This document shows positions 3,455 to 26,122 of a stretch of DNA of 26,448 nt, piece by piece (position 1 is the stretch's first letter; every line of letters begins with the position of its first letter). Location: the IMG/VR virus record IMGVR_UViG_3300046321_000316, positions 1 to 26,448 of that record. The stretch is one strand, 5' to 3'. Position numbers and translations under genes: made by a program. The DNA comes from a virus. The notes beneath the pieces were generated by a model. The model did not search any database and was not told where the DNA came from. It saw only the letters and a list, made by a program, of their open reading frames with translations.

Positions 3455-4663
3455 TTATTTAGCACCAAGTGTACCCAAAATCTCACTAATTTCATCAAGT
3501 TGATTATACTTTATGATTAGCAGTTCAATACCCATAGACCTACAATAGTCTTCCTTTAGTCGATCTCTCTGAGCACCACGAAAGAATGCAACTTCAGCGT
3601 CCATCGGTTGAGCACCTGCGCTTCTCCCAAAGTGACTCGGTTGGTAGTGCTGAACACCATGAAATTCTATACAAAGGTTGTGGTCGGGTAACCAGAAGTC
3701 AAATGGTAGTAATTTGTTCGTCATAGGATTACGACAGTCGCCAAATCGGTGCTCCTGGATGAAGTTGATTGATTTGAGTTTTAGTATGTGTGATATAATT
3801 GCCTCACCCCTACTCTCTTTACATTTCTTGCATCCCACCAGACTATTTGCATGTTGCTGCACTGTCGTCGTAAACGCACCGTGCTTGGGGCAAACTACTT
3901 GTATCTTAGACTTGATATTGGCAAACTCCCCAACAAGGGAATAATCATACTTACCAAAGTGTACTGTCGTCGCTTTGGTGACGAAACTAGAACGAGTGTG
4001 TTGAGCTTTTTGTGCACACCCTGCACACCCTGTCTTGTGTTTGTTGGTAAATCTATATGGATATACCTCAAAATCTCCATGAGTCGGACACGTCACGATA
4101 ATTTTAGACAATCCGTCACCAAATTCTGCTCGCTCATAAGTGTACTTGTTTCCGTGCACTGATATAGCAGCGGCAATCCACGACTCAGTTGTCTTAGCGG
4201 GTTTGCGAATCCCACACTTGGGGCATCCTGACGGATCTTTTCGAAAGTGATGTTTGCTTCGAGTCCACCACTCACCGTGTTCTGGGCACATAACAGAGAA
4301 TAGGTAGTTGTACCTACTACCCTCTAGGTTCACTTGGCGGGTTGTGTTGGTATAATCATATTTGACTCCATGAATTGCTTGTGACTTGGTAACAAAAGAT
4401 TCTACTGCTTGACTATCTCTAGATAGTAACTGCTGATTGCTGCCACATGTTGGGCAACCGCGTTTATATTGTATGTGTGATGCCCAGGAACTTGTCCACG
4501 GGCCGTGAGTCTGGCACACAACAGTGACCTTAGTCGACTGGTCTTCACAGTGTGTTACGTCTGTGTAGTCATACAAATCGCCGTGGTGCACACGACCTTG
4601 TTCGATAAAAGCTTTTTGGGATATCTGTTGCTTGAACTGATTAGAATTTAGTCGTACTATCAT
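3455..4663 (-). CDS. EDxHD (Vsr-like) homing endonuclease with four zinc-finger repeats, 402 aa
   Basis: Residues about 15-280 hold four repeats of the form F...HG..YDY...V.V.C..HG.....GC..C, each with paired cysteines likely to bind zinc. The C-terminal domain begins RGEAIISHIL, continues with FGDCRNPMTNKLLPFDFWLP, then CIEFHGVQHY, and ends with Asp/Lys residues near RDRLKEDYC and LLIIKYNQ. These Glu, Asp, His and Asp positions match the EDxHD group of phage homing endonucleases related to the Vsr mismatch nuclease (type example I-Bth0305I). The protein should cut a specific DNA site and promote its own spread. It sits downstream of the tail sheath gene beyond a terminator. The 553-aa protein at 7406 is a paralogue. 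Confidence 0.82.
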   Translation of the reverse strand: MIVRLNSNQFKQQISQKAFIEQGRVHHGDLYDYTDVTHCEDQSTKVTVVCQTHGPWTSSWASHIQYKRGCPTCGSNQQLLSRDSQAVESFVTKSQAIHGVKYDYTNTTRQVNLEGSRYNYLFSVMCPEHGEWWTRSKHHFRKDPSGCPKCGIRKPAKTTESWIAAAISVHGNKYTYERAEFGDGLSKIIVTCPTHGDFEVYPYRFTNKHKTGCAGCAQKAQHTRSSFVTKATTVHFGKYDYSLVGEFANIKSKIQVVCPKHGAFTTTVQQHANSLVGCKKCKESRGEAIISHILKLKSINFIQEHRFGDCRNPMTNKLLPFDFWLPDHNLCIEFHGVQHYQPSHFGRSAGAQPMDAEVAFFRGAQRDRLKEDYCRSMGIELLIIKYNQLDEISEILGTLGAK

Positions 4664-4673
4664 ACAATTATTG

Positions 4674-4681
4674 TATTTATT
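4674..4681 (-). promoter_or_regulatory. Late-promoter-like box AATAAATA
   Basis: The minus strand reads AATAAATA, one base from the T4 late element TATAAATA. It ends 11 bases before ATG 4663, which would leave an almost leaderless transcript and no ribosome-binding site. The functional link to the endonuclease gene is therefore uncertain. Confidence 0.3.
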
Positions 4682-4737
4682 AAGTGTTGTGTTGCCAACA
4701 AACTTCTAGTTGTAGTGATATTTGGTAGCCTCTTTGA

Positions 4738-4779
4738 TTTTTGACAACACTTAGTAGCATCACAATGTGTTGTCAAAAA
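4738..4779. repeat. Perfect 13-bp inverted repeat with TTGACA in both arms
   Basis: The arms TTTTTGACAACAC (4738-4750) and its complement (4767-4779) are separated by 16 bases. Each arm contains TTGACA on one strand, so the element could be an operator or a pair of facing -35 boxes. The stem is AT-rich and lacks a terminator's GC core. Confidence 0.6.
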
Positions 4780-4881
4780 ATGGGTGAGTTGCTAACTTTC
4801 GTTGTTCTATATATCTCATGGTTCTAACCAGTTGTGGACTAATTCTTTAACCCGAGTGATTTGATCGCACTTAATTATTAA

Positions 4882-5043
4882 CTATTTAATGGTATGATCA
4901 TTGCAGTATTGTTCCTTGATTTTGTCTGGCCAAGGTAGATCCACGAACAATACGACTGAATAGTTGTTGTCAAAAAATAGGTGAGTATCACGATGATACT
5001 CACCTAAATGAAGCGCTATAGCTGGGGAATTATGATGAAGTTG
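4882..5043 (-). pseudogene. Start-less open frame, possible gene remnant (53 codons)
   Basis: A minus-strand frame is open from after a TGA at 5046-5044 to TAG 4884-4882. It has no ATG, GTG or TTG at a sensible start and overlaps the end of the sheath gene. Its later part, NNYSVVLFVDLPWPDKIKEQ, has a protein-like composition and could be the C-terminus of a gene whose front was lost. The terminator hairpin lies inside it. The frame may also be open by chance. Confidence 0.25.
4972..5006 (-). terminator. Intrinsic terminator of the tail sheath gene
   Basis: On the minus strand a perfect 13-bp stem, TAGGTGAGTATCA and its complement, with a 3-base loop (stem 4978-5006) is followed directly by six Ts (4977-4972). 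It starts 24 bases after the sheath stop codon, the usual position for a Rho-independent terminator. Confidence 0.88.
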
Positions 5044-7147
5044 TCAAACTTGCACCCTGTGCTACGACGTGCACCGGAATAATAATAAACTCCACACTCA
5101 ACATCGGCTTGATCGCTATGTCCAGATACAATTCGTGGCGGTCGATCCTGATACCATAATTGTTACTGGAGTCACAGACTACCAAATAATCGACCAGACC
5201 ACGCTTGATCAAAATGTCCTTCAACATCCCTTCGATTGCAGACTTAAAGTTGTTGCGTGTGATTTGGTCATTAGGTTCAAAAAGGTAGGAGAAGCCCAAT
5301 TTGCGGGCTTGGCGTCTAATGTACGCACACAACCGAACAACGTTCACTCGATCTAGTGCACTTGCATAGCTTTGTGACGTCTTTTGGCCGAATACTAATA
5401 TACCCCTGCCTGGCATGTTCACGATCGGATTCATGTTGGTGTAGTACTGGTACAGTGCATTGCGTTGTCCCTTATTCAGAGCAACGTCGACGAATGTTGT
5501 TGGTGCGCCCATTGTACCTGTTACATAACCAACGCGAGTGATGCCGGTCACCTGGCCGCGATGTACGCCTGCTGGTGCGAACCACAACTCACCTGCCAGA
5601 TCATTGTATGTATATGTACGGATAGCAATCGCTGATGATGGGACAAACACATCATTTCCATCAACATTGGTGCCCATTCCGTGAGGGTAGTAGTAAGCAA
5701 TATTACGGTTAACACGGCGGCTTGAAGCGCTGGTCGCTGGTGCATTACCCCAGTTAGCAGCTTGCTCAGGATCCAGGTTAAAAGGCACATCACCGATTAC
5801 CATCGCTTCTTCGCCAATATCTTCACTCAGAGTCAAAAGATCATCAGCCAACTCAGGAAACCCTGGGCACAGGATCAGATTGTATTCATACAATTCAGAG
5901 CGAATTTCTTGATTGCTGCTTACGACCGCTTGTAGTGCAGTCACGATCGTGCTGCGTTTTGCTGCATCATTAGCACCGAGAGTTGTATTATTTGCAAATG
6001 CTAGAGTCAACTTATATTCTGTACCAGCATCTAACAAGAATGCGCTTGCTTCCGAACTTGTCCATTCACTTGCTATCGAACCAGTTCCCGGAGCTGCAAG
6101 CAACCAAGCGGCGATTGCACCAGTATAACCCAAGAATTGAGTAGTAGCTGGTTGGTTAAAACCGTTCCCGTACACGTCAATGCTTGTATCAGCAGTTGCG
6201 CCAGCCACAGGTACGCCAAGTGATTGGTATCCATTCAGTGAGCTGAACAAGTTTGTATCATTGATTACAATTGAGCTGAGGCTGCCGACTGCTGTGCTGG
6301 TAACAATCAAATTACCACCCGTGATCGTAATTGTCGCTGTGCCTGCCAGATCAGCATTGATTTGAATTAACAAATTGTTATATGTTTGGGCATTTGCTCC
6401 AATCAGACTGATAACCCGGTTAACACCATTCACACTGATATTGGCTGTGTACACGCTGGCGTTATTGTTGAGTCCAGTAGGCAGTGCTGTGGACGTCAGT
6501 CCAGCTGCAAAGTCAATACCTTGGAAGCCAGCAGTTGTAATCGCAGGTGTAGCGCTGTCATCGTAAAAATCAAACTCAGCACGCAAGAATGTATTCTCGG
6601 AGAGTACGGGTTGCATCACTTGCTGAGTAAATGTTAGCAACTCAGAGTCAGTAATCGAATCGCGAAACCCCGGATCCCCAATATTGTAACCGTTTTGCAT
6701 GTTGTAAGAAGCCAAGTAAGCATTCGACAATGCTTCTAACTCAGCAGCTGCAGTGGCCAGCTTGGTGGTCCAGCGAGAACTAACTACGGTATAGTTGTCT
6801 TGTAAATTGACATTGGCACGAACGACATAAGCCAGGTCGCCAATGCCGAGATAACGATTCAGTGTGTACAAGCCATATTCATTGAGAGCGGAACCATGCA
6901 GTGGAGCACCATTTGCGGCTTTCAAGAATGACGGAATACCATACAACTGCAGTGATTGACGTAGAGATGTGACGGTGCGAACAACATTCGACTCTATTGT
7001 TCCGAGGGCAGTGTTAATGCCATCAGACTGCAGCTTATCCTCTTGGGTAGCAATAAAATACAGCGGAACGGTTGAAGCAATGCTTGGTACGAACATGGAC
7101 TGATCGTCCAGCAGTGTAACGACACCAGGAGATACTAAAGAAGCCAT
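5030..7147 (-). CDS. Tail sheath protein (T4 gp18-like), 705 aa
   Basis: The start at ATG 7147 has AAGGA about eight bases before it and gives MASLVSPGVVTLLDDQSMFV, a typical sheath N-terminus; a longer frame to 7216 is not supported. The later part carries conserved sheath sequence such as RRVNRNIAYYYPHGMGTNVD, ELWFAPAGVHRGQVTGITRV and a C-terminal region (residues about 600-700) with NVVRLCAYIRRQARKLGFSY. Sheath subunits polymerise around the tail tube and contract to drive injection. At 705 aa it is somewhat longer than T4 gp18 (659 aa). The extra length appears as a Thr/Ser/Asn-rich stretch around residues 220-330 (for example TATITITGGNLIVTSTAVGS), probably an exposed insertion. It is flanked by two related homing endonucleases. 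Confidence 0.93.
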   Translation of the reverse strand: MASLVSPGVVTLLDDQSMFVPSIASTVPLYFIATQEDKLQSDGINTALGTIESNVVRTVTSLRQSLQLYGIPSFLKAANGAPLHGSALNEYGLYTLNRYLGIGDLAYVVRANVNLQDNYTVVSSRWTTKLATAAAELEALSNAYLASYNMQNGYNIGDPGFRDSITDSELLTFTQQVMQPVLSENTFLRAEFDFYDDSATPAITTAGFQGIDFAAGLTSTALPTGLNNNASVYTANISVNGVNRVISLIGANAQTYNNLLIQINADLAGTATITITGGNLIVTSTAVGSLSSIVINDTNLFSSLNGYQSLGVPVAGATADTSIDVYGNGFNQPATTQFLGYTGAIAAWLLAAPGTGSIASEWTSSEASAFLLDAGTEYKLTLAFANNTTLGANDAAKRSTIVTALQAVVSSNQEIRSELYEYNLILCPGFPELADDLLTLSEDIGEEAMVIGDVPFNLDPEQAANWGNAPATSASSRRVNRNIAYYYPHGMGTNVDGNDVFVPSSAIAIRTYTYNDLAGELWFAPAGVHRGQVTGITRVGYVTGTMGAPTTFVDVALNKGQRNALYQYYTNMNPIVNMPGRGILVFGQKTSQSYASALDRVNVVRLCAYIRRQARKLGFSYLFEPNDQITRNNFKSAIEGMLKDILIKRGLVDYLVVCDSSNNYGIRIDRHELYLDIAIKPMLSVEFIIIPVHVVAQGASLTTSS

Positions 7148-7178
7148 AAGATTTTCCTTTTTTGTGTTAGGGCGAATA

Positions 7179-7186
7179 TATTTACT
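7179..7186 (-). promoter_or_regulatory. Late-promoter-like box AGTAAATA upstream of tail sheath
   Basis: The minus strand reads AGTAAATATAT, six of eight matches to TATAAATA, 32 bases before ATG 7147. The identical 11-mer recurs at 7320-7310. Position is right for a late promoter but the match is weak. Confidence 0.35.
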
Positions 7187-7215
7187 TGACCCCAATATTT
7201 TTGTATAAACTATCA

Positions 7216-7223
7216 CATAAATA
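7216..7223 (+). promoter_or_regulatory. Late-promoter-like box CATAAATA, rightward
   Basis: The plus strand reads CATAAATA, one base from the T4 late consensus and identical to boxes at 10999 and 23752. It points toward the 553-aa endonuclease gene but lies about 180 bases from it. Confidence 0.35.
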
Positions 7224-7405: not shown

Positions 7406-9067
7406 ATGATTGAACCAACTCAGAGTGTATCCTTAGAGCTCAGCTCATGTAATGATGGCAGTTTAACCACCTGCAACACCAAACTTGAAAAATTCTTGGC
7501 AGCCTGTAGTGTCGCACATGGCGATCGATATGACTACTCGTTAGTCCACAACATATCAAGTGGTTCTGATAAAGTTGTAGTAATCTGCCGCAAGCATGGA
7601 GAATTCACTACGCAAGCACGAGCGCATAGTAGTACGCGCACTCGGAGTGGGTGTCCGGCTTGTGCAGGTAATGTAGCCTGGACTCATCAATCATTCATCA
7701 CTCACTGTACTACGAAACATGGTGATCAATTTGATTATTCTAAGATACCAAGCAACTTTGATATGGGGCAGAATACACCAATAATAATCACCTGCCGAGA
7801 TCATGGACAGTTTACATCAACTGTAGTCAGGCACCTGGCAAGCGCACGTGGGTGCCCACGGTGTTCACTTAGTGAGCCACTTACTAGGATGAAGTTTATA
7901 CGAGATGGGTTGAGACTGTATGGGGATCTATATAGCTACAACAATCTTCCAGACACTGTTAGTAGAATTGACAAGGCGGTGCCAGTCACTTGCATAAATC
8001 ACGGTGATTGGTTGGTGTCGTACCAGAGATTTGTGAATAAAACCATTGGTTGTGTTAATTGCCGACGAGAATCCAGAAGCGATTTGAGATCATCAAGAGA
8101 GGTGGAGGATAGACGGATTGCACACTTCATAACAGGTGCTCAGAGGGAACACGGAAACAAATATGATTATTCCCACATAAACCAACTTGCTTCGATGAGC
8201 CACAAGGTATCTGTGCGCTGCCCCATACACGGAGATTTTTTGATCACTGCTAGCAATCATACTAAGAGAGGTAGTGCTGTTGGGTGTGTGGATTGTGCTG
8301 GGAATAGAAAATTGACTAGAGATGTCTTTATTCGCCGAGCAGTGGAAATACACCGTGGGCGATATGACTATGCTAAGGTTCCTGCTGAATTCCATGACGG
8401 GATTTCAACGAGAATTCAAGTCAATTGCAGCACACACGGCGAGTTTTCGACACAAATCAACTGGCATTTGCTTGATAAAGCTGGTTGTGCCAAGTGCGCC
8501 AAGAATGCACCAATGACCCAAGAACGGTTCTTAGTAAGAGCACAAGAGAAGCATGGTGATTCATATGATTATTCTCACCTCGCCGTAACAAGCGTAAGTG
8601 AAAATATTACACTTGAGTGTACCAAGCATGGGCCTTTTTCATTAACGGTCAAGCGGCACATAGATACTGGAACAGGCTGTAAGATGTGCACTCCACCATC
8701 GAGAGGTGAAGAGCGGATAGTTCGTCTGTTAGATTCACTTAGCCAAATGTACAAAAGAGAACACAAATTTGCCGACTGTATTAACCCACTCACTGGCAGA
8801 CTCTTGCGCTACGATTTTTGGTTGCCTGAGCACAATTTATTAATAGAGTTTCATGGTAAGCAACACTACATAATCAGCAACTTCTCAACTACGCGTACAC
8901 CCGAGAAGCAACGTGAGGCGGAAATTCAGTTTGCTGCTAGTATCGCACGTGATGAAGTTAAGAAAAAGTATGCTGATCTTAGAGGGTATAGATTGCTGGT
9001 GATTAAGTACACAGAAATCAACGATGTTGAACGAATAATCAAACGGGAGTTATCCGATGTCACTTGA
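7406..9067 (+). CDS. EDxHD (Vsr-like) homing endonuclease with six zinc-finger repeats, 553 aa
   Basis: This rightward paralogue of the 402-aa endonuclease has about six repeats of the F...HG..YDY...C..HG.F...H....GC..C type between residues 28 and 425. Examples are KYDYSHINQL with VRCPIHGDF, and RYDYAKVPAE with VNCSTHGEF. The C-terminal nuclease domain has SRGEERIVRLL, FADCINPLTGRLLRYDFWLP, LLIEFHGKQHY, then RDEVKKKY and LLVIKYTE. The Glu, Asp, His, Asp signature of EDxHD homing endonucleases is thus intact. It should cleave a specific DNA site. It lies upstream of and divergent from the tail sheath gene. No clear ribosome-binding site precedes ATG 7406. Its last 11 bases overlap the next frame. 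Confidence 0.82.
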   Translation: MIEPTQSVSLELSSCNDGSLTTCNTKLEKFLAACSVAHGDRYDYSLVHNISSGSDKVVVICRKHGEFTTQARAHSSTRTRSGCPACAGNVAWTHQSFITHCTTKHGDQFDYSKIPSNFDMGQNTPIIITCRDHGQFTSTVVRHLASARGCPRCSLSEPLTRMKFIRDGLRLYGDLYSYNNLPDTVSRIDKAVPVTCINHGDWLVSYQRFVNKTIGCVNCRRESRSDLRSSREVEDRRIAHFITGAQREHGNKYDYSHINQLASMSHKVSVRCPIHGDFLITASNHTKRGSAVGCVDCAGNRKLTRDVFIRRAVEIHRGRYDYAKVPAEFHDGISTRIQVNCSTHGEFSTQINWHLLDKAGCAKCAKNAPMTQERFLVRAQEKHGDSYDYSHLAVTSVSENITLECTKHGPFSLTVKRHIDTGTGCKMCTPPSRGEERIVRLLDSLSQMYKREHKFADCINPLTGRLLRYDFWLPEHNLLIEFHGKQHYIISNFSTTRTPEKQREAEIQFAASIARDEVKKKYADLRGYRLLVIKYTEINDVERIIKRELSDVT

Positions 9068-10235: not shown

Positions 10236-10260
10236 AAAAAGCCTCAATGCGAGGCTTTTT
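10236..10260. terminator. Bidirectional intrinsic terminator
   Basis: AAAAAGCCTC, a loop AATGC, then GAGGCTTTTT forms a 10-bp stem with T-runs on both strands. It lies between convergent genes. The stop codon of the leftward 57-aa gene (10244-10246) lies inside it. Confidence 0.9.
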
Positions 10261-10417
10261 CTTTGTCTATTAGTGTTTGTGTAAGCGCATCTAGTGTTGC
10301 GTTTGAGGTTTCGATTACTCTATTGGTATCAGCAAGTAATTGCTTTGTCGCAGCACGCGTCTCTACTATGGAATTTAGAGATGCGATGATTTCACTTAGT
10401 TGCTGTTGGATGTTCAT
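10244..10417 (-). CDS. Small coiled-coil protein, 57 aa
   Basis: The start is ATG 10417 with GAG about eight bases upstream; a TTG at 10429 that overlaps the previous stop is an alternative. The product, MNIQQQLSEIIASLNSIVET onward, is almost entirely helical with a regular pattern of Leu, Ile and Val and no Cys, Pro or Gly. It is probably a coiled coil. It follows the 75-aa protein in the same leftward run. It lacks the MNNQRLAELAGI leader of its two upstream neighbours. Its stop codon lies in the terminator loop region. Function is unknown; a scaffold- or head-associated role is possible from context. Confidence 0.6.
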   Translation of the reverse strand: MNIQQQLSEIIASLNSIVETRAATKQLLADTNRVIETSNATLDALTQTLIDKEKASH

Positions 10418-10425
10418 GAGATAAC

Positions 10426-10653
10426 TCAATCATAATCGGGAACAGAATCCACAATGGCTTCCAACGCCGACACGAGAGCTTCCATGCTCTTGACGTCTGT
10501 GTGCGTGCGAATTTTTCGGATTGCTCGTTGAATCTGATTTATTACTTTGTCGGCATCGGCAGCTAAGTCGGTAATAGCATTAATATCAGTCTGGTCGACA
10601 GATGATTCTGTTAATGCAATTCCTGCTAGTTCCGCTAATCGTTGATTATTCAT
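10426..10653 (-). CDS. Small helical protein with capsid-targeting-like leader, 75 aa
   Basis: The protein begins MNNQRLAELAGIALTE, then SSVDQTDINAITDLAADADK and a helical remainder. The first 12 residues are identical to those of the neighbouring 96-aa protein, and the underlying 38 bases are identical too. After residue 16 the two diverge completely. LTE followed by Ser fits the (L/I)-x-E site cut by the T4 prohead protease gp21. T4 internal head proteins carry such short N-terminal targeting sequences, which are removed during maturation. I infer, but cannot show, that this is a packaged internal head protein. The mature part would be about 59 aa, acidic and helical. Confidence 0.6.
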   Translation of the reverse strand: MNNQRLAELAGIALTESSVDQTDINAITDLAADADKVINQIQRAIRKIRTHTDVKSMEALVSALEAIVDSVPDYD

Positions 10654-10970
10654 AATGTGTAGGTGTGGTGGTTTGTAATTAGCCAGAAAACTTCCCGCTA
10701 ATCACATCAGAAATAGTTCGTTGGCATCCCGCTAATATCTTCGATACTTCTGTTGTTTTTTGCAGCAGTTGCTCCAAGTGACGCGCGTCGGCGGTATCAT
10801 CAGATGTACTGGCAGCGCTTCTTCTGAGTCGATCTGTTTTTAATGTGATCTGTTCTAGTGACGTTGATATATTTGCCAATTCAGTATCGAGTCTGGATTT
10901 TGTCCAGTTCACGTCGACTGCTTCGGTAATTACAATTCCTGCTAGTTCCGCTAATCGTTGATTATTCATA
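10617..10970 (-). repeat. Exact 38-bp direct repeat at two gene starts
   Basis: Positions 10617-10654 and 10933-10970 are identical and encode MNNQRLAELAGI plus the base before the start codon. A shared GGTGTGGTGGTTT follows each copy within 15 bases, so part of the leader region is duplicated too. Confidence 0.9.
10679..10969 (-). CDS. Small helical protein with capsid-targeting-like leader, 96 aa
   Basis: The N-terminus MNNQRLAELAGIVITE, then AVDVNW, duplicates that of the 75-aa neighbour. It ends in ITE before Ala, again a fit to the (L/I)-x-E prohead protease site. The remaining 80 residues are helical, with LDTELANISTSLEQITLKTD and a Ser/Asp-rich hinge ASTSDDTADA, and end in VISGKFSG. 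A CATAAATA late-type box lies about 23 bases upstream, which agrees with expression late in infection together with head assembly. The leader logic matches T4 internal proteins (IPI-IPIII), but the mature part has no recognisable family. It could equally be a core or scaffold accessory protein. Confidence 0.62.
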   Translation of the reverse strand: MNNQRLAELAGIVITEAVDVNWTKSRLDTELANISTSLEQITLKTDRLRRSAASTSDDTADARHLEQLLQKTTEVSKILAGCQRTISDVISGKFSG

Positions 10971-10991
10971 TGGTGTGGTGGTTTTGTGTAG

Positions 10992-10999
10992 TATTTATG
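10992..10999 (-). promoter_or_regulatory. Late-promoter-like box CATAAATA
   Basis: The minus strand reads CATAAATA, one base from the T4 late consensus, ending 23 bases before ATG 10969. That is the usual leader length for a T4-type late transcript. Confidence 0.55.
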
Positions 11000-11008
11000 T
11001 GTTACTGA

Positions 11009-11791
11009 TTACTCTGCAGATGGAAACAATGCCTCAGCGTCAATTTCTGTCGAGCTGTAGTCGATTGGGTTACCGTCCAGGAAATCAACAATTTCTTGTG
11101 CATCACCTGGAGTAAACACCTGGTCTGCTCCTGTAGCGGTAATTGCTGTTAGCCGAACAAGAATCTTCTTGATGAAATCATCCTTATTCTTGGCTGGTGG
11201 AGTAATCCAGATCGGAAACTCGAAGCTCAACTTGATAACTAAATTCCTATCATCGGTACCGGCGGGGACAACTTCATCCAACGAAATATCCGTCAACTCA
11301 ACAAAAGTTAACTTAGTCCAATCAAATCGTGAATCACTGGTCTGGATTGTCAGAGAGGGGTCGAACAACATGAGAATCTGCTCCAGCAGCTGCATTTGTT
11401 GGTGCTGGTTACTCACCCAACAGTACACTTCTGTCGTGACTTTGTATGGAATGGGCATATACCGGTGAATCACTCGAACGTCATTTGGCAGCATCCCACC
11501 ACTGGGGAGGTAAGAAAACCTATCCTCTTGCCCGATACTCTTGTTCATTTCAGGAGCTTGATTAATTCCTGTCATGTGAGTAGACATTAGTGGTAGTCGA
11601 ATTGGTTTGTTTTGGGTATTCTCATTTGCTATGCTGGCAACTACTTTGTCGTAGCTACCATACATCACAGGGACAGATACAAACTTGTCGTTATTTACAC
11701 CAACTTTAACCTTGAATCCAGTAAAGATATTTGCAAATTGGATTAGGTAGCGTTCTATTTGGTGATTGTAGAAGTATGGTTGACTTTGCAT
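11009..11791 (-). CDS. Tail sheath stabiliser and completion protein (T4 gp15-like), 260 aa
   Basis: The protein has the recognisable order of the gp15 family: an opening YFYNHQIERYLIQFANIF, then KFVSVPVMYGSYDKV, a middle IHRYMPIPYKVTTEVYCWVS, QQMQLLEQILMLFDPSLTIQ and a closing LVIKLSFEFPIWITPPAKNK. T4 gp15 is 272 aa and forms a hexameric ring capping the head-proximal end of the tail, stabilising the sheath and joining tail to neck. The 260-aa length agrees. Its start overlaps the upstream stop as TAATG, so it is translationally coupled to the 270-aa gene in a virion operon. The homology is by pattern, not by alignment. Confidence 0.75.
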   Translation of the reverse strand: MQSQPYFYNHQIERYLIQFANIFTGFKVKVGVNNDKFVSVPVMYGSYDKVVASIANENTQNKPIRLPLMSTHMTGINQAPEMNKSIGQEDRFSYLPSGGMLPNDVRVIHRYMPIPYKVTTEVYCWVSNQHQQMQLLEQILMLFDPSLTIQTSDSRFDWTKLTFVELTDISLDEVVPAGTDDRNLVIKLSFEFPIWITPPAKNKDDFIKKILVRLTAITATGADQVFTPGDAQEIVDFLDGNPIDYSSTEIDAEALFPSAE

Positions 11792-12603
11792 TATAGTTGG
11801 TCCTTAATTTGTTGCCAGATATCATATCGGACATATACAGCACGACCAGAGAACCACACCTCGCGAGAATGTAGGTGGAATACTTCCGAAGTGTATTCGA
11901 ACGTTGGCATTGTTGAAGGTGTGACTAACTGAAAGTTATTGAATTCTGGCGCCATGTACTTCTCCAGGAAGTCTCGCAGGGATCCCGACATCGGGACATT
12001 TGGATAGAATTTACGAATTGATTGGTCCAACTGAGTAGTCACGTTCCCAGTACCAGCGGGGTCTATCGTATCAAATAGGTCGATCAAATTATGAGCCCAG
12101 TCTCCATCAACATTCTGGCTGGCGGCTCGAATGAGTGGTTTGAAGCTACCCCACAAATCATAAGACGGGCATATGCCAATTTTTGTACCGTTCTCTGGAA
12201 ACACCACATATGTGTCTCCATATTCATTAGATTCGCCAGTATCTGCAGTTGTGCAAATCGTACTGCGATCACGAGGTGGGTAATTTTTCCAACTATCTAG
12301 CCCACCCGCTGAAAGTAGCTTGGTGTAGTGGTTTGGATTGTCCAGAGACCGGCGCTCAATCTGTGATGAGTCGCTTGCAAAATATTCGGTTGTTACTTTC
12401 CGTAATCCTCTAAACAACGGAGAATTTTGAATAGAGTCGGAGCACCGCTGTTTGATTAACTCAAGTGCGTGGTCAACTTCAATTGATACGGTGTATTGGG
12501 ATGCTGTATCAGGATCGATGATTGTAGGATTAGATGCTCGCCTGCCGTTGGAAGAATCGGGGGCGGTGAATACAGCTGCCTCTAATACGTGTTGTAGTTT
12601 CAT
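11791..12603 (-). CDS. Possible ADP-ribosyltransferase-like virion protein, 270 aa
   Basis: The start overlaps the upstream stop (ATGA) and the stop overlaps the next start (TAATG), so it lies within a virion operon. The N-terminus MKLQHVLEAAVF resembles a short head-targeting leader ending in x-L-E before Ala. Inside are SPLFRGL, RRSLDNPNHYTKLL, then NYPPRDRSTICTT and YGDTYVVFPENGTKIGICPS. This order (an early R-G, an R-S-x-x-x-T-T strand and a Y-G-x-x-Y-V-x-P-E strand) recalls R-S-E class ADP-ribosyltransferases, which in T4 (Alt) are packaged and injected. The match is loose and no ExE motif is obvious. It may instead be a purely structural neck or tail protein. Confidence 0.4.
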   Translation of the reverse strand: MKLQHVLEAAVFTAPDSSNGRRASNPTIIDPDTASQYTVSIEVDHALELIKQRCSDSIQNSPLFRGLRKVTTEYFASDSSQIERRSLDNPNHYTKLLSAGGLDSWKNYPPRDRSTICTTADTGESNEYGDTYVVFPENGTKIGICPSYDLWGSFKPLIRAASQNVDGDWAHNLIDLFDTIDPAGTGNVTTQLDQSIRKFYPNVPMSGSLRDFLEKYMAPEFNNFQLVTPSTMPTFEYTSEVFHLHSREVWFSGRAVYVRYDIWQQIKDQL

Positions 12604-14389: not shown

Positions 14390-17269
14390 TTATCCTTTAG
14401 TGATGCTGGCGCCGATGCCCCATGTCTCAACATCTGAGGCAACGTAGTCATCTAACTCCGAGATCAGCAATGTTTGCATCGTCACCGCCTCAGCCTTGAG
14501 AGATTCAGCATTCAATGTGATGCTACCGCCAGCGCCAGCAAGTGAGCTGAACTTGCCCCGCATATTGCCAAGCATGATCATAGCTTCTGATAGTGCCCAA
14601 TCTTCGATCCAATTTTTCGTCATTCTATCAGTCAACAAGTCTTGCTCTGTGCGTTCGATTACAGCATCGACCAGGATTCGTTCATTGTTGCCGATATTTC
14701 GCATGATCGATAATAATCGCTTACGTTCTGTCCATTGAAATTGGAACTCACGCACAAACAGTTTATTGACGAGAGATTGATAAGAAGACATCAAGTGGAA
14801 CGATAGTAAGTCGAATGTGCCGCTAGAGTATAGTTGTTGGACTAACTGTTGTCCGTACAAATCACTACCACCACTGTTGTTCGTGAGTAGACCCCCTCGT
14901 GTACGGTATAGATTCAAGACGTCTACAATTGTGTTGAATCCAACTGAGCGGCTAGTGAGAAGATAATTTTGTTGACCACGCTTGAGATCCAAGAAGAAGT
15001 ATGCACGAGAGTTCCCAGCGCCAGAATCACGGCGAATATAGTCTAAACCTTTTTGAACAGCAAGGTCCATTTGCTCACGAGACAACTCAACATTGACTGT
15101 CGGTGCACCTAACCGGGTAAACAGGTTGTTTATTATTTTTCTACGCTCATCAACTGAACCGTCTGTTCCTACACCTATCTCTTCTGTCATAGGACGGCCT
15201 GAGTAGCCATCCAATCCTAGGATTGGAGTGCCTGCAGTAAAAGTAAGGTCTATAAACAGGAGGGGCGATGAGATCACTTCAATCATTGACGGCTCGCCGC
15301 ACAATTGAGATACAATGTTGATATTGTTGATTTCGTTCCAGGCGGCAATAAAGGGTGCTGTGATTTGATCCCAGGTGCTGCCCGTCCAAATGTTGAGGGC
15401 ACCAGAAGCACTGTTCAACCATCGAGTGCCGACTGGGATCACCAATAGTGAGGTCGAAAATGGTACTACTACCCAAGTGGTAGTCGAGTCCCGCTGAAAT
15501 AGTTGACTACCATCGTACCAGGTTGTGCCGAGCACGGGCTGGGTGGGGTCTGTTACAGATGATGTTGGATATATTTGCGACCACGTCGATCCAACTCTCT
15601 CGTACCAAAGTCTCGTAATGGTATTAAACCAATATCCAGCAGTGAGTGCGGACGGACTCACGATGGATTGGAGAACATTTACCCCGACCCAACTACAATT
15701 TTCAACAGTCCCTACTAGTTTAAACCAGAGACCTAGTGTTGTGTTGTACCAGAGAGACCCTTGGGTGATGGGTGATTTGGTGGCGGGATTGGTAGTTTGG
15801 ATAAACAGTTTACTTGTAATATCGATCCACGTAGTCCCATCCCATTCGCTCAGAGTGTTGAGTGTGGTGTTGAATAACACATCTGCTACAGCCAGGTCAG
15901 TTGGCTGCTTATGGTACACAATTGCTGTCACACTCACCCAAGTGCTTGATGAGTTATACTGCATCAAATGTTTTGTGAGTGGGTCAATCCAGTATTGGTG
16001 ATTAGTTGGTGATGCTGGAGCTGTAGTAGATAGAGTTGCTGGGGTAGCTACCCAAATACTACCGTTCCAAACGCTCAGTACCATGGTCATTGGGTTATAC
16101 CAGAGTGACCCTGTCGTGATCGTTTGGGGAGTTGTGTTCATCACCAATACGGTTGGCGTTGTCCAAGTATCAGAAGTATCATTCCAACGGAAAAATACAT
16201 CACCTGATTTCCAGAAGTTAGTACAATCGAGCATTGGTGCTTTGTTGGGATCGAGTGCTGTTACTGTGGTCGCGACATCTTTCCACACAACACCATCAAA
16301 CTGGTGGGCGGTAGTACCGTCATACCAATAGTCATCACACTTAGGTAGGGATGGGTCGCTAGCATACGATATAACTGGAGATAAAGGTGATGGTGGTACC
16401 CAAGCGGTACCAGACCAGAGTTTCAGCTGAGATGTTGTAAGGTCAAACCAGGCTGAGTTAGTAGGTGGGGCAGTTGGATCAGCGTTAGAGATCACTGGTT
16501 TTACAATATTATACTGAGTACCATTCCACTGGGACCACAAACCACCAACATACGAGAATTGTCCATAATATGGTGCAGTGTTTTGTTCAAATTGGTTGAT
16601 TGCAGTATGCTTCCAACTCTCGTTCAACTCATCAACAAGCGTCTGGTATGTAGATAGCGCAGATCCTCTGAGAACGAGATCTATTACCTTATCATCAACG
16701 TTCAATTTGATAGGAAAGTTGTTAAGTGCAGGTAATGTAATCGGAAGGGTTGCAGTTGGGTCGACTCCATTAGTCTGTATACACTGGTACCCCGCAGTAC
16801 ATTTGATTTCACTAGCACTTGGGTTGGATTGTGCATAGCTGTATATGCCGCCCTGGTTGTACTGGCACACTTTATCAATCGCAAAGAAGCCGAAATAATA
16901 GGCGGTGCAGCTGGTGTCAAGACCAGTAACGCTCACACACCCCGTCGTGGTGTCGCTATTGCTGCTCCAGACTACTTTTGCAGCGCCTATCTTATCACCA
17001 GCAAATATCACATTTGACACATTACTGTCGCCTGAATAGCAACACATTCCGTCCTTGGGTTTGTCTCCTTGGGTTATGGGGGCGGTGCTCACTAAGAGTG
17101 TCCCACCTGCGTAGTGCCCAGTGGGAGTTCCACAGCCCGTCTGGGGTGTAGGAGGGACAGGCGACCAACAAACGGTACCAGTCGTATCAGACGTTCGTGT
17201 GAAGGTTAGGGTTTGAGTATTTCCTTCGGTCCGAATTGCACCAGGAGTGTCGAAGAATGAAACGGCCAT
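14390..17269 (-). CDS. Large virion protein with Trp-rich tandem repeats, 959 aa
   Basis: Residues 1-165 are Cys-rich with a fibronectin-III-like pattern (GCVSVTGLDTSCTAYYFGFF). Residues about 240-636 hold around eleven imperfect repeats of some 35-45 residues, with the core G-x-x-W-(Y/F)-(N/D)-x-x-x-x-x-L-x-x-W-x-G-x-x-W, for example GSLWYNPMTMVLSVWNGSIW and TRWLNSASGALNIWTGSTW. Residues about 640-959 form a separate domain with LSREQMDLAVQKGLDYIRRD, NSRAYFFLDLKRGQQNYLL and SVGFNTIVDVLNLYRTRG, seen in structural proteins of T4-like phages. A GATAAATA late-type box lies 26 bases upstream. The repeats probably form a beta-rich array for binding or as a spacer. The virion role is inferred from the operon and composition. 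Confidence 0.65.
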   Translation of the reverse strand: MAVSFFDTPGAIRTEGNTQTLTFTRTSDTTGTVCWSPVPPTPQTGCGTPTGHYAGGTLLVSTAPITQGDKPKDGMCCYSGDSNVSNVIFAGDKIGAAKVVWSSNSDTTTGCVSVTGLDTSCTAYYFGFFAIDKVCQYNQGGIYSYAQSNPSASEIKCTAGYQCIQTNGVDPTATLPITLPALNNFPIKLNVDDKVIDLVLRGSALSTYQTLVDELNESWKHTAINQFEQNTAPYYGQFSYVGGLWSQWNGTQYNIVKPVISNADPTAPPTNSAWFDLTTSQLKLWSGTAWVPPSPLSPVISYASDPSLPKCDDYWYDGTTAHQFDGVVWKDVATTVTALDPNKAPMLDCTNFWKSGDVFFRWNDTSDTWTTPTVLVMNTTPQTITTGSLWYNPMTMVLSVWNGSIWVATPATLSTTAPASPTNHQYWIDPLTKHLMQYNSSSTWVSVTAIVYHKQPTDLAVADVLFNTTLNTLSEWDGTTWIDITSKLFIQTTNPATKSPITQGSLWYNTTLGLWFKLVGTVENCSWVGVNVLQSIVSPSALTAGYWFNTITRLWYERVGSTWSQIYPTSSVTDPTQPVLGTTWYDGSQLFQRDSTTTWVVVPFSTSLLVIPVGTRWLNSASGALNIWTGSTWDQITAPFIAAWNEINNINIVSQLCGEPSMIEVISSPLLFIDLTFTAGTPILGLDGYSGRPMTEEIGVGTDGSVDERRKIINNLFTRLGAPTVNVELSREQMDLAVQKGLDYIRRDSGAGNSRAYFFLDLKRGQQNYLLTSRSVGFNTIVDVLNLYRTRGGLLTNNSGGSDLYGQQLVQQLYSSGTFDLLSFHLMSSYQSLVNKLFVREFQFQWTERKRLLSIMRNIGNNERILVDAVIERTEQDLLTDRMTKNWIEDWALSEAMIMLGNMRGKFSSLAGAGGSITLNAESLKAEAVTMQTLLISELDDYVASDVETWGIGASITKG

Positions 17270-17294
17270 TAGTATTGTGTAGTTGGTATGATCT

Positions 17295-17302
17295 TATTTA
17301 TC
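17295..17302 (-). promoter_or_regulatory. Late-promoter-like box GATAAATA, leftward
   Basis: The minus strand reads GATAAATA, ending 26 bases before ATG 17269 of the 959-aa virion gene. It forms a divergent pair with the box at 17308-17315. Confidence 0.55.
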
Positions 17303-17307
17303 TTTGC

Positions 17308-17315
17308 AATAAATA
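17308..17315 (+). promoter_or_regulatory. Late-promoter-like box AATAAATA, rightward
   Basis: The plus strand reads AATAAATA, ending 27 bases before ATG 17342. With the leftward box five bases away it could form a divergent late promoter pair. Confidence 0.5.
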
Positions 17316-17341
17316 CACGACAGTCGAACTACCTGTGCCAC

Positions 17342-17830
17342 ATGAAGCTAGTCAACATTTTAAGTATGCGTCGGAGCATCCAAGAAGCATATAGTACGTA
17401 TCTACCCACTGTACTAAGCACACTAAACACACCTGAGAAATTTATGGTGATGAAGCCAACTGCAATCACTCAGATCGCCCAACTGATTACTGCACTGTCT
17501 ATTATATCAAATGATAAGTTCAAAGAAACATTAAAATTGTCGGATTCAGATGTGTTGAATTACATCACAAAATTAGGATCTGATTCGTCAGTGGCAGCGA
17601 AACTTGTCGAGATTTCCAAAAAATCTCCATCCCAACTAACAGCCCTGACTACACTGCTGACAGATTTTCAAAAACTAGATCAAGGAAAGAAGCAAGAATT
17701 AGTTGGGCAAATTACCAAATTAGACACAAAGCTTCAAGCTCTTTGTGCAGAACTGGAGAAAACGACAGCGCAAGAAAAGCAAGAAATTGATAAGGTGGCT
17801 CAGACAGCTGTACCAAACCTTACTCTCTAG
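17342..17830 (+). CDS. All-helical protein with possible head-targeting leader, 162 aa
   Basis: A longer frame begins at 17288, but ATG 17342 gives the sensible N-terminus MKLVNILSMRRSIQEAYSTY. The first 15 residues end in IQE before Ala, matching the (L/I)-x-E prohead protease site. MKLVNIL also resembles the MKLQHVL start of the 270-aa protein. The rest is helical with two parts: a region rich in Thr, Ile and Leu (TAITQIAQLITALSIISND), then a coiled-coil C-terminus (TKLDTKLQALCAELEKTTAQ). It is preceded by a late-type box and followed by phoH on the same strand. No family is recognised. A core or internal head protein is a reasonable guess. Confidence 0.55.
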   Translation: MKLVNILSMRRSIQEAYSTYLPTVLSTLNTPEKFMVMKPTAITQIAQLITALSIISNDKFKETLKLSDSDVLNYITKLGSDSSVAAKLVEISKKSPSQLTALTTLLTDFQKLDQGKKQELVGQITKLDTKLQALCAELEKTTAQEKQEIDKVAQTAVPNLTL

Positions 17831-23850: not shown

Positions 23851-25164
23851 TTATGCGAATGACAAACCGTTAATTACGACTTTACCATAGTAGTCCGAAC
23901 TATTAGCTAACGATGTAGCAGAGTTCGTGAATGAGGTCTTAGCATAGCGAGTCATCAAGGACATTGATGGTTGATATGTTGTTGGATTCATGATCACACC
24001 AGTGCTCATCAACGGAATGTATGGGCAGTAAAAGTACCCTGCATCTTGTTCCCCATTACCACCCTTGTACCCGATAAGCAGCTCATCATCACCTGAACCA
24101 CCAAATGTAGTTGATGATGCTTGATTCCACATGTATGAGTACACTTTAATGGAACCATTCAACGTGCCAGCCAGTGCTGTATTATTTGGTCCTTTGAAGG
24201 AACCTTCAACAGCTGGTGCGAACACTGATTTTGCAGCGCTTTGCAGAACCGACAAGATCATTGGAGACACGACGATGAAGTTACCTGCACCACGACGAGT
24301 CTTACGACCAATCTCATTTGTCACTGCGTTGATGATGGTACCCAAAGCAGCGAAACGATCACCAGCAAATGTTGGTGTGTATGGAGATGCTGCGAGAGCA
24401 CCATTCCAGGTTGCAGTTGTACCAGCAAGGGCCAACAGGTCACTAATGACCTCATTGTCGATTTCTTGGATAATTTCTGCAGACATACCAGCAGTCATTT
24501 CAGTCTCAATGTTCAGACCGTGTTGGCTGTTCAAATCTTGCATTGCTTCGATTGTCCAACCAGTTTGCAATTTGCGTGACTTAGCTTCGACAGCTTGTGA
24601 CACAACTTCCAGGGTTACCTTACGGCCGCCAGAACCTTCGATACGGCCACCAGAACCACCGACGGTACAACCATCCAAGCTAGAGAATCCGGTGTTAGCA
24701 CCGAAACCTGCACCTGTAGGAGCACCAGAGATGTTTGCTTCGTTGGTTGCACCCAAGCCGGACGCACCAGCTGCGATCGCACCAGCATCTGTGTCACCAG
24801 AGTAGTAACGGCGGATTGGCTCAGCATTACCGAACATTTCATCGCCAGCGTTGACAGTGCTTGGAGCGCCGACAGTTTCGTTATACTTGTAACGCATGCT
24901 ATAGACGATACCGACAGGTGCCTTCATAGGCTGCACACCGACCAACTCAGTTGCGATTGTACCAGGGATGATACGACGAACCATAGGGATCAGGATGTTA
25001 CGGAAGCCAGCAACATCAGATGCTTGGGTAGTACTGCCAGAAGCAGACTCTGACAAGTGTTGTTTTTGGTTCTCGAGCAATTGGTCGACAATCTTGCGTT
25101 TGTCACCGGACAAACCGGTCAGGAGGGTGGACTTGGCTTCGCTCCAGTTTTCTAGTAAATTCAT
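23851..25164 (-). CDS. Major capsid protein (T4 gp23-like), 437 aa
   Basis: ATG 25164 has AAGGA about nine bases upstream and gives MNLLENWSEAKSTLLTGLSG; a TTG two codons earlier is not needed. Gp23-family features are GFRNILIPMVRRIIPGTIAT, ELVGVQPMKAPVGIVYSMRY, the Gly/Ala-rich insert around residues 130-175, LNSQHGLNIETEMTAGMSAE, GNFIVVSPMILSVLQSAAKS, and the C-terminal region with YFYCPYIPLMSTGVIMNPTT. T4 gp23 loses its N-terminal 65 residues to the prohead protease. Here LSE before Ser at about residue 39 is a likely site, giving a shorter propeptide. Subunits form the head hexamers, and folding probably needs the GroES-like protein encoded nearby. It is co-transcribed with the scaffold, 22 bases away. 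Confidence 0.92.
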   Translation of the reverse strand: MNLLENWSEAKSTLLTGLSGDKRKIVDQLLENQKQHLSESASGSTTQASDVAGFRNILIPMVRRIIPGTIATELVGVQPMKAPVGIVYSMRYKYNETVGAPSTVNAGDEMFGNAEPIRRYYSGDTDAGAIAAGASGLGATNEANISGAPTGAGFGANTGFSSLDGCTVGGSGGRIEGSGGRKVTLEVVSQAVEAKSRKLQTGWTIEAMQDLNSQHGLNIETEMTAGMSAEIIQEIDNEVISDLLALAGTTATWNGALAASPYTPTFAGDRFAALGTIINAVTNEIGRKTRRGAGNFIVVSPMILSVLQSAAKSVFAPAVEGSFKGPNNTALAGTLNGSIKVYSYMWNQASSTTFGGSGDDELLIGYKGGNGEQDAGYFYCPYIPLMSTGVIMNPTTYQPSMSLMTRYAKTSFTNSATSLANSSDYYGKVVINGLSFA

Positions 25165-25186
25165 GGTCAATTTTCCTTTCTGAATA

Positions 25187-26122
25187 TTAAATTAGACCCG
25201 CGCTTGATAACAAGCGACGTTTTTCTTCTTCTGACATTCCAGATGTCGATTCGCTTACTACCTTGCGGGTATTGCGAGTCGTGTCACCTGTCATCAGTTC
25301 CAGCTTACGGGGATCTACCTTAGATTCAGACAGTACTTGAACTTCCTTTTCTGTTTCTTTGCTTCCCACTTTAGTGCTGATATTAGCACTCTCTGTGATC
25401 ACACGGTCAATAAATCGATCGTATGTTTCTTGCAGCTTGTCTGTGGAGACAGTTGCGAGAATCGTTTCCATCACTTGTTTCGGTTTGCCGCCAAGTGATG
25501 ATAAAATTGTTGTCAGTGTATTTGCGCGCTGTGACTCATTGAGCGACTTTTTCAGTGCAGCATTTTCTGCTTGTGACTCTTGGAGCGCAGATGTTAGTTT
25601 TTCCAATTGGCCGGCGATGCCAGTCTGTTGAACATAGAATTGTTCAAATTCAGAGCGGAAACCTTCAAACATCTTAGCTCCGAGAGCATTGCGTTGAGAC
25701 TCTACCAGATCAGCTTTGATCTCTTCAAACTCTTCTGCAATTACAATGTCCAAGAATGAATCGATCTTTTCGATCAACATCTTGAAATCACCCTTGACGG
25801 TTTGAGAGAGTTCTTCTTTAGCTTCTACTAGCGATGCTGCAGATTCTGCTTCCAGATCACGGAAACTTTCGATGTCTGCTTTGTGCTCTGTCACGTGCTT
25901 TGTGAGGGCTTCGGTTACCAATTGGTCAACTGATTCGATCAGAGTATCACGATCTGCTACGTACTCACGAGCGAATTTCTCAGTCAACTCTTGGGTAACA
26001 GAAGCGGTAGCTTCTTCACGAGCTTCTGTGACGATCTGATCAAAAGCTTCCTTGATAGACACTTTGGTATCATCTGTCAGGACTTCGCTTTCAAATAGTT
26101 TCTTTAGTACTTCAACTGACAT
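25187..26122 (-). CDS. Prohead core scaffold protein (T4 gp22-like), 311 aa
   Basis: AAAGGA lies about six bases before ATG 26122. The protein is highly charged and almost entirely helical, as expected for a scaffold core: KVSIKEAFDQIVTEAREEAT, LTEKFAREYVADRDTLIESV, EELSQTVKGDFKMLIEKIDS and a coiled coil QLEKLTSALQESQAENAALK. The C-terminus KRRLLSSAGLI is typical of gp22. Several (L/I/V)-x-E motifs before Ala or Ser (IVTEA, LVTEA, LVES, LNES, VITES, LSES) fit cleavage by the prohead protease, which breaks the core down before DNA packaging. Position directly upstream of the gp23-like gene matches T4 gene order. An exact late promoter box precedes it. Confidence 0.88.
   Translation of the reverse strand: MSVEVLKKLFESEVLTDDTKVSIKEAFDQIVTEAREEATASVTQELTEKFAREYVADRDTLIESVDQLVTEALTKHVTEHKADIESFRDLEAESAASLVEAKEELSQTVKGDFKMLIEKIDSFLDIVIAEEFEEIKADLVESQRNALGAKMFEGFRSEFEQFYVQQTGIAGQLEKLTSALQESQAENAALKKSLNESQRANTLTTILSSLGGKPKQVMETILATVSTDKLQETYDRFIDRVITESANISTKVGSKETEKEVQVLSESKVDPRKLELMTGDTTRNTRKVVSESTSGMSEEEKRRLLSSAGLI

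Follow-up and report, generated by a model that had tools for sequence, protein, structure and literature searches.

A shared N-terminal leader on small proteins of uncultivated T4-type phages as a candidate capsid-targeting signal

Two small genes with a common start in a T4-type phage

The window, that is, the whole stretch of DNA analysed here, is a virus record of 26,448 bases from a T4-type myovirus. Two small genes, P0001 and P0002, were found on its minus strand immediately downstream of gp15 (Table 1; throughout, a slash marks a predicted point of cleavage). An ATAAATA motif begins 29 nt ahead of the start codon of P0002. Five of the seven ATAAATA motifs on the minus strand stand 17-53 nt before a listed gene start, and the starts of gp23, gp18 and gp15 in the window are without such an upstream motif. 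These motifs resemble the T4 late promoter and are possibly late promoters of T4 type. Elsewhere in the window, two large ORFs between structural genes (3455-4663 and 7406-9067) carry repeated HGxxYDYS and CPxC zinc-ribbon-like units and look by eye like free-standing endonucleases. On the opposite (plus) strand, a likely internal start in the ORF at 17288-17830 gives MKLVNILSMRRSIQE/A, a candidate leader with IQE/A.

Table 1. Positions of the genes, leaders, repeats and motifs discussed, in window coordinates
Feature	Position	Strand	Details
Tail sheath gene	5030-7216		closest cultured relatives Stenotrophomonas phages CM1/RAS14 and Xanthomonas phage XacN1, ~40-42% identity
56-aa ORF without leader	10244..10414	-	
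P0001	10426..10653	-	75 aa, ATG start; leader MNNQRLAELAGIALTE then S17; predicted helical
P0001 leader (codons 1-16)	10606..10653	-	predicted gp21-type site L-T-E/S
Direct repeat of 79 nt, copy 1	10603..10681	-	P0001 leader and 5' element
P0002	10679..10969	-	96 aa, ATG start; leader MNNQRLAELAGIVITE then A17; predicted two-helix hairpin
P0002 leader (codons 1-16)	10922..10969	-	predicted gp21-type site I-T-E/A
Direct repeat of 79 nt, copy 2	10919..10997	-	P0002 leader and 5' element
gp15-like tail sheath stabilizer gene	11009..11791	-	upstream neighbour of P0002; phrog_11196 (tail sheath) E 5e-41; phrog_227 (tail sheath stabilizer) E 8e-33
gp13-like protein gene	14390-17269		
gp23, major capsid protein gene	23851..25170	-	PF07068, E 1e-93; LSE/S aligned with T4 cleavage site LTE/A65
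gp22-like scaffold gene	25187..26122	-	PF25623 T4_CASP, E 4e-6, score at cut-off; nine [LI]-x-E-[AS] sites
ATAAATA before gp22, 22061-23698, gp13, P0002 and 3455-4663	26169, 23751, 17301, 10998, 4680	-	

The initial annotation described two adjacent small genes that share a start, MNNQRLAELAGI, which is followed by LTE/S or ITE/A and then by unrelated bodies, and both ORFs confirmed this description. Residues 1-12 of the two proteins are identical, and so are all the nucleotides of those codons (36/36). In BLASTP, residues 1-17 aligned (14/17 identical) and the bodies gave no alignment; nor was the P0001/P0002 pair found in an all-versus-all BLASTP (E ≤ 1) of the bodies of the 19 leader proteins described below. 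At the DNA level, the repeat unit is 79 nt at 80% and extends upstream beyond the start codon. Two perfect copies of the 11-mer ACCACCACACC are present in the window, one ahead of each gene, and a further copy elsewhere has one mismatch, while 0.39 occurrences with at most one mismatch are expected from shuffled sequence. The likeness of P0001 and P0002 exceeds chance by far. Since the repeat is recent at the DNA level, a duplication of the gene start is possible when this genome is viewed alone, and the case for a functional leader thus depends on other phages.

Leader and bodies in the closest relatives

Two relatives of the window were compared. G002, from the window's own species, matches the window over its full length at 99.4% identity, and G001, a 64 kb contig, is a genus-level relative. 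A P0002 homologue is present in G001, with 75% identity overall and 79% in the body. Its leader, MNTQQRLAELAGITLITLINE/A, has one residue inserted before the core and four after it, and the I-x-E/A site is retained as INE/A. The homologue is adjoined by a 58-aa ORF that resembles by eye the 56-aa ORF of the window, in a different order. The body of P0001 had no tblastn match (E ≤ 1) in the G001 contig, which is a fragment. The high variability expected of the bodies in the initial annotation may thus apply to P0001, as far as this 64 kb comparison shows, but not to P0002, whose body is largely conserved there.

Between the window and G001, 13 of 16 aligned residues of the P0002 leader are kept, while 6 of 12 degenerate identical codons are changed, a share like that of six other genes, which span 0.26-0.60. 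In the body, 8 such codons are changed (13%; leader versus body, Fisher p 0.009). The local DNA alignment of the two P0002 genes begins at the E16 codon, an end that the leader insertion in G001 could produce alone. These small numbers fit an exchange of bodies beneath a resident leader.

The prohead protease gp21 was found in three of the nine records searched, namely G001 (PF03420, E 3e-27), XacN1 and RAS14. It was unmatched in the window record and in G002, both of which end short of the region that holds gp21 in G001. Among mechanically called ORFs of G001, an [LI]xE[AS] site at residues 8-25 was present in 9 of the 26 late plus-strand ORFs (19-50 kb) versus 1 of the 44 others (Fisher p 4e-4, with the late/other split chosen after looking at the list), and the internal site density of the late ORFs predicts ~0.04 per ORF. 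The ORFs with such an early site include gp21 itself (ITE/A), gp22, the P0002 homologue and two proteins with T4-like leaders encoded directly after gp21 (G001:21482-22264 and 22264-22977; L043:1482-2977). The leaders of the latter two are MPTLKFSEYLAE/S (KFSEYLAE/S) and MKFSDYLSE/S. The two proteins match different parts of phrog_12810, and that with MKFSDYLSE/S carries a zeta-toxin/AAA kinase-like domain, so that, judging from its leader, the head of this phage may contain a packaged kinase.

A third leader-like protein of 149-153 aa starts with RLAQMAGIVLKE/S in G002 (4657-5115, L046) and with RLARMAGITLKE/S in G001 (28637-29083). Its gene sits between the tail tube gene and gp22, and its leader is a divergent form of the P0001/P0002 leader. 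Since G002 covers the window at 99.4%, this gene can be counted as the third in the species with a leader-like start. By eye, the protein has an acidic-looking middle, a second site (LTE/G) and a conserved C-terminal part, features that give it the look of a core protein processed by gp21.

In the neck region of the window, the ORF at 11791-12603 was also observed to match phrog_12810. Its product starts with MKLQHVLE/A (MKLATILAE/A in the G001 version), and 258 of 270 residues are shared with G001, while synonymous change is low (0.26). It is possibly another head-targeted protein.

The leader recurs on other bodies in other viral contigs

IMG/VR was scanned with back-translated leader patterns, and the matches were then translated. 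Together with neighbours found by eye or regex, hand-picking from these scans gave a collection, not a census, of 19 small leader proteins in 12 contigs, the window included. Outside the window's genus, 16 small proteins starting with MxxxRLxxLAG were found in 10 contigs (L050, L052, L056, L062, L069, L070, L071, L072, L073 and L076). Related phages had been named as the place to look for the same leader on different bodies, and the leader does recur elsewhere on other bodies. The genes often stand in company: three are adjacent in L062, three lie in one cassette in L069, two are adjacent in L073 as in the window, and two lie ~900 bases apart in L050.

The first scan (QRLAELAGI) gave 12 matches in 10 contigs, eight of which were P0001/P0002 or a G001-type homologue. 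The other four (L004, L007, L009 and L010) were rejected as internal to longer frames, with an internal M just before the match in L004 and L007. The second scan gave 16 matches in 14 contigs; four were from the window's own species, three were kept (L050, L052 and L056), and five with S-L or R-F in place of R-L were rejected (L054, L055, L057, L059 and L060). A 68-aa protein, MNIERLKELAGVNEYKG, present in four copies (L051, L053, L058 and L061), was excluded for its doubtful site. From the third scan (7 matches in 5 contigs, four from the own species), two matches were kept and that in L063 was rejected as internal. A strict pattern, R-L-L-E-L-A-G-[IVM]-x-hydrophobic-[TN]-E, matched nine times, in seven viral contigs, all nine N-terminal in a small ORF and all kept; its codon-reversed control gave one match, within a longer frame. 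Eight of the 10 matches (9 contigs) from the fifth scan were kept, and L074 (a 36-aa frame) and L075 (a 136-aa frame with K after G and no site) were dropped.

The bodies behind the leader are mostly dissimilar. When the 19 bodies were compared with each other by BLASTP (E ≤ 1), P0002 was linked to its G001 homologue, one L069/L070 pair was alike at E 2e-5, the three L069 bodies were weakly alike (E 0.001-0.01), and one L050/L071 pair had E 0.02; all other pairs had E of at least 0.1. No link was found at this threshold among the three bodies of L062, nor did the two bodies of L050, of L073 or of the window match each other. Identical residues of leaders within the same contig differed at the codon in 20 of 53 comparisons, in which the pairs overlap. 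With this recurrence, the leader is a real module.

The module was sought beyond the viral contigs as well. In bacterial genome contigs, the third-scan pattern gave five matches in five contigs, none an N-terminal leader. R-L-x-E-L-A-G was found in 0 of 14 cultured phage genomes searched, a pattern that divergent forms would escape, and the looser L-x-E-L-A-G gave seven matches in XacN1 and one in RAS14, with no leader protein among them. In tblastn against the phage collection, P0001 had two matches (E 2 and 5) and P0002 none; three further leader proteins, single ones of L056, L050 and L062, as well as a 24-aa leader, had none or weak ones (best E 0.05). In the main texts of a largely open-access literature collection, the strings RLLELAG, LLELAGV and RLAELAGI were not found, and no listed title on capsid targeting, prohead proteases or internal proteins was taken as describing the leader.

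A gp21-type site follows the leader core

L/I-x-E is given as the gp21 motif in PMC9026906, with propeptides that are 10-19 residues long in the T4 internal proteins and 65 in gp23. The regex [LI]xE[AS] located sites in the T4 record at E19 of ipI, E10 of ipII, E10 of ipIII and E65 of gp23, in agreement with these lengths. In the window, [LI]xE[AS] occurs once each in P0001 and P0002, at E16, and a further L-A-E/L lies inside the leader core of both. The gp22-like scaffold has nine such sites versus seven in its T4 counterpart, as expected of a gp21 substrate. Besides P0001, P0002 and this scaffold, 15 of 18 other window proteins tested are without [LI]xE[AS]. One [LI]-x-E-[AS] site each is also present in T4 gp15, gp18 and gp20, which are not known to be gp21 substrates, so the motif by itself is weak and unspecific.

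Within ten residues after the leader core, [LIVM]xE is present in 19 of 19 leaders and [LI]xE in 14; with A or S required after E, the counts are 13 for [LIVM]xE[AS] and 10 for [LI]xE[AS]. V or M thus replaces L/I in five leaders, and A/S is missing after E in six. The 19 leaders are mutually related and hand-picked, so these counts speak of motif conservation and are not 19 independent observations. At the aligned gp23 site, the window has LSE/S, T4 LTE/A, XacN1 LAE/T, G001 MTE/S and L056 MME/T, and two relatives (G001 and L056) thus have M as the first residue of the motif.

Genomic context of the leader genes

In six of the ten contigs outside the window's genus, the leader genes have head or neck genes around them, and in one of the six they directly follow the gene of the prohead protease. 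This one is L073, in which the order is portal (phrog_213), a gene of 241 aa, head maturation protease gp21 (phrog_207, E 7e-54; PF03420, E 4e-23), two leader genes and a gene in scaffold position. The last matches phrog_10922 (function unknown) and also shows a sub-threshold match (E 0.003) to the T4 scaffold family. Downstream of gp23 in L056, three genes precede the leader gene, and one of the three starts with MSLPTFKEFLFEA, near the T4 leader by eye. In L069, L070 and L072, the leader genes have a gp13-like gene (phrog_211) on one side and a structural gene of phrog_11591 on the other, and in L052 the leader gene is upstream of a gp13-like gene (phrog_211, E 4e-153) with two genes between. 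L069 was also observed to hold, at 4021-5431, four small genes on both strands that start with MKTQELF or MKIQELF, several with bodies alike by eye; by eye, this is a different repeated leader type.

The scanned neighbours in the other four contigs (L050, L062, L071 and L076) belong to DNA metabolism or other functions and include exonuclease, polymerase, helicase, ribonucleotide reductase and QueE-like genes. No head gene was found among the scanned genes of these contigs, so these four are at most candidates for the T4 type. The ip genes of T4 likewise lie outside the head cluster. A recurring spot away from head genes was observed next to or near an exonuclease-like gene, of phrog_298 in L050 and L062 and of PD-(D/E)XK type in L076.

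Predicted folds, families and charge of the bodies

Single-sequence AF2 models of P0001 (pLDDT 71) and P0002 (pLDDT 84) are helical, the latter a two-helix hairpin. A Foldseek search of the PDB with the P0002 model returned helical hairpins, with 0 of 544 at E ≤ 0.001, and the best E in a PDB sequence search was 0.7. These results would fit an inhibitor no better than a protein of the core or a helper of assembly. In family searches, the window proteins reached a best E of 0.0027 (Pfam) and 0.033 (PHROGs). Among the 19 leader proteins, L062:4402-4635 resembled DUF7336 (E 5e-5) and one in L017 resembled End3 (E 4e-4), both under the Pfam cut-off, and one matched phrog_3002 (E 7e-5). No informative functional or structural match was found for the bodies examined, and none was above the Pfam cut-off. 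The mature pI of the window bodies is 4.5 and 6.8, versus 9.0-9.7 for the T4 internal proteins; of the bodies of 15 other leader proteins, which with those of the window make up 17 of the 19, 11 are below pH 7 and four above 8.

Interpretation of the leader

We consider it probable that the 16-residue N-terminus of P0001 and P0002 is a capsid-targeting leader of a second type, which docks in the prohead and is cut by gp21, so that the bodies stay in the head and are probably delivered. A capsid-targeting leader ending in (L/I)-x-E had been proposed by the initial annotation; its recurrence, its motif, the head-gene context and the aligned gp23 site speak for it, while the counter-defence role that it suggested is an analogy. 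In sequence, the leader is not similar to that of T4. As a predicted capsid-targeting signal, the leader is well supported by sequence comparison, and a role of the bodies as effectors is possible by analogy.

In this mechanism, the leader would dock P0001 and P0002 into the prohead scaffold core late in infection. The gp21-type prohead protease of the phage would then cut after LTE16 and ITE16, sites of the same kind as those in its gp23 and gp22, and would leave the mature bodies, 59 and 80 residues long, free in the head. There the bodies would remain with the DNA and, by analogy with T4, probably enter the next host cell, and by the same analogy alone they could serve an early-infection task such as counter-defence.

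A special case is that the bodies, once packaged, specifically inhibit host restriction or another first-line defence and are swapped under a constant leader. According to PMC12373910 (also PMC9391042 and PMC3012670), T4 Ip1-3 have only their N-terminal leader in common and inhibit distinct type IV restriction enzymes, and IPIII is required on ECOR17 (PMC9391042). Cassettes with several bodies per phage would suit such a role. However, the searches of the bodies gave no informative match, and the P0002 body is not hypervariable, with low synonymous divergence from G001. By analogy, we rate this role as possible but somewhat unlikely.

Alternatively, the leader may mark proteins of the prohead core, scaffold helpers like T4 gp67 and gp68, that are cut up or expelled at maturation and have no role after injection. 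The helical models and the acidic to neutral bodies are consistent with this, as are the position of the L073 leader genes between gp21 and the scaffold-position gene and the third leader-like protein of G002 and G001, acidic-looking and with a second LTE site by eye. However, P0001 and P0002 each carry just one [LI]-x-E-[AS] site, P0001 is unmatched in the G001 contig, and the many different bodies under one leader would be unusual for essential core parts. We regard a core role as unlikely.

That the leader serves as a tag for docking in the assembly of neck or tail, on small completion or chaperone factors beside gp13/gp14/gp15 and with an incidental E-A/S likeness, seems to us quite improbable: leader genes adjoin gp13/gp14/gp15-like genes in the window, L069, L070 and L072 and lie upstream of gp13 in L052, but they are placed otherwise in L073, L056, L050, L062, L071 and L076, the site is retained in all 19 leaders, and the bodies are mostly unrelated. 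Least probable is a recent local duplication in which P0001 took the translation-start region of P0002 (5' element and leader) by recombination and the peptide is functionless, for although the leader and the 5' element are nearly identical in DNA, cross-phage conservation, with the same peptide on bodies of other phages and synonymous changes in its codons (20/53 within contigs; 6/12 between the window and G001), has largely refuted it already.

If the leader is a second type of capsid-targeting signal, it would offer a sequence handle on small unknown virion-borne proteins of uncultivated phages, with several bodies per phage, and would show which of them deserve the first tests for injected effectors. 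Phage heads could then also be loaded with cargo by a second tag. If the bodies are core parts instead, the leader still defines a prohead-core docking signal in these phages. A broader proposal, which we make tentatively and with the balance leaning against it, is that R-L-x-E-L-A-G with [LIVM]-x-E within ten residues is an independently evolved second capsid-targeting signal across uncultivated T4-type phages, and that the bodies behind it form a hidden arsenal of injected early effectors, many of them anti-defence, readable by the leader.

Comparison with known systems

Among T-even phages, many internal proteins were discovered by their leader alone, as noted in PMC12373910; for uncultivated Far-T4 phages, background is given in PMC4360716. 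Like IPI, IPII and IPIII of T4, P0001 and P0002 are otherwise unrelated small proteins with a short leader (10-19 residues in T4, 16 here) that ends in (L/I)-x-E before A or S, and they are encoded by a T4-type phage with gp22 and gp23, with gp21 in a relative. Unlike the T4 leader, MKTxxEF as read from the T4 record, MNNQRLAELAGI bears no resemblance to it by eye, and the mature bodies in the window are acidic or neutral whereas those of T4 are basic. The T4 proteins are packaged and injected, whereas P0001 and P0002 are candidates known here from their sequence.

The core proteins gp67, gp68 and gp22 of T4 are likewise small or helical with gp21-type sites, and one leader pair, that of L073, lies in the gp21-scaffold interval. 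In contrast to gp22, which has several [LI]-x-E-[AS] sites along its chain, P0001 and P0002 have only one, near the N-terminus, and no sequence match was found. Closer at hand, the KFSEYLAE/S and KFSDYLSE/S proteins of G001, encoded beside gp21 in the same phage genus, have the same kind of N-terminal site, but their leaders are T4 CTS-like by eye and stand on larger proteins. With these leaders beside a P0002-type leader in G001, the genus seems to hold two leader types. Since the leader of P0001 and P0002 is unlike that of T4, and two features of the T4 class, leader similarity and a basic body, were not found, the two proteins would represent a variation on the T4 design.
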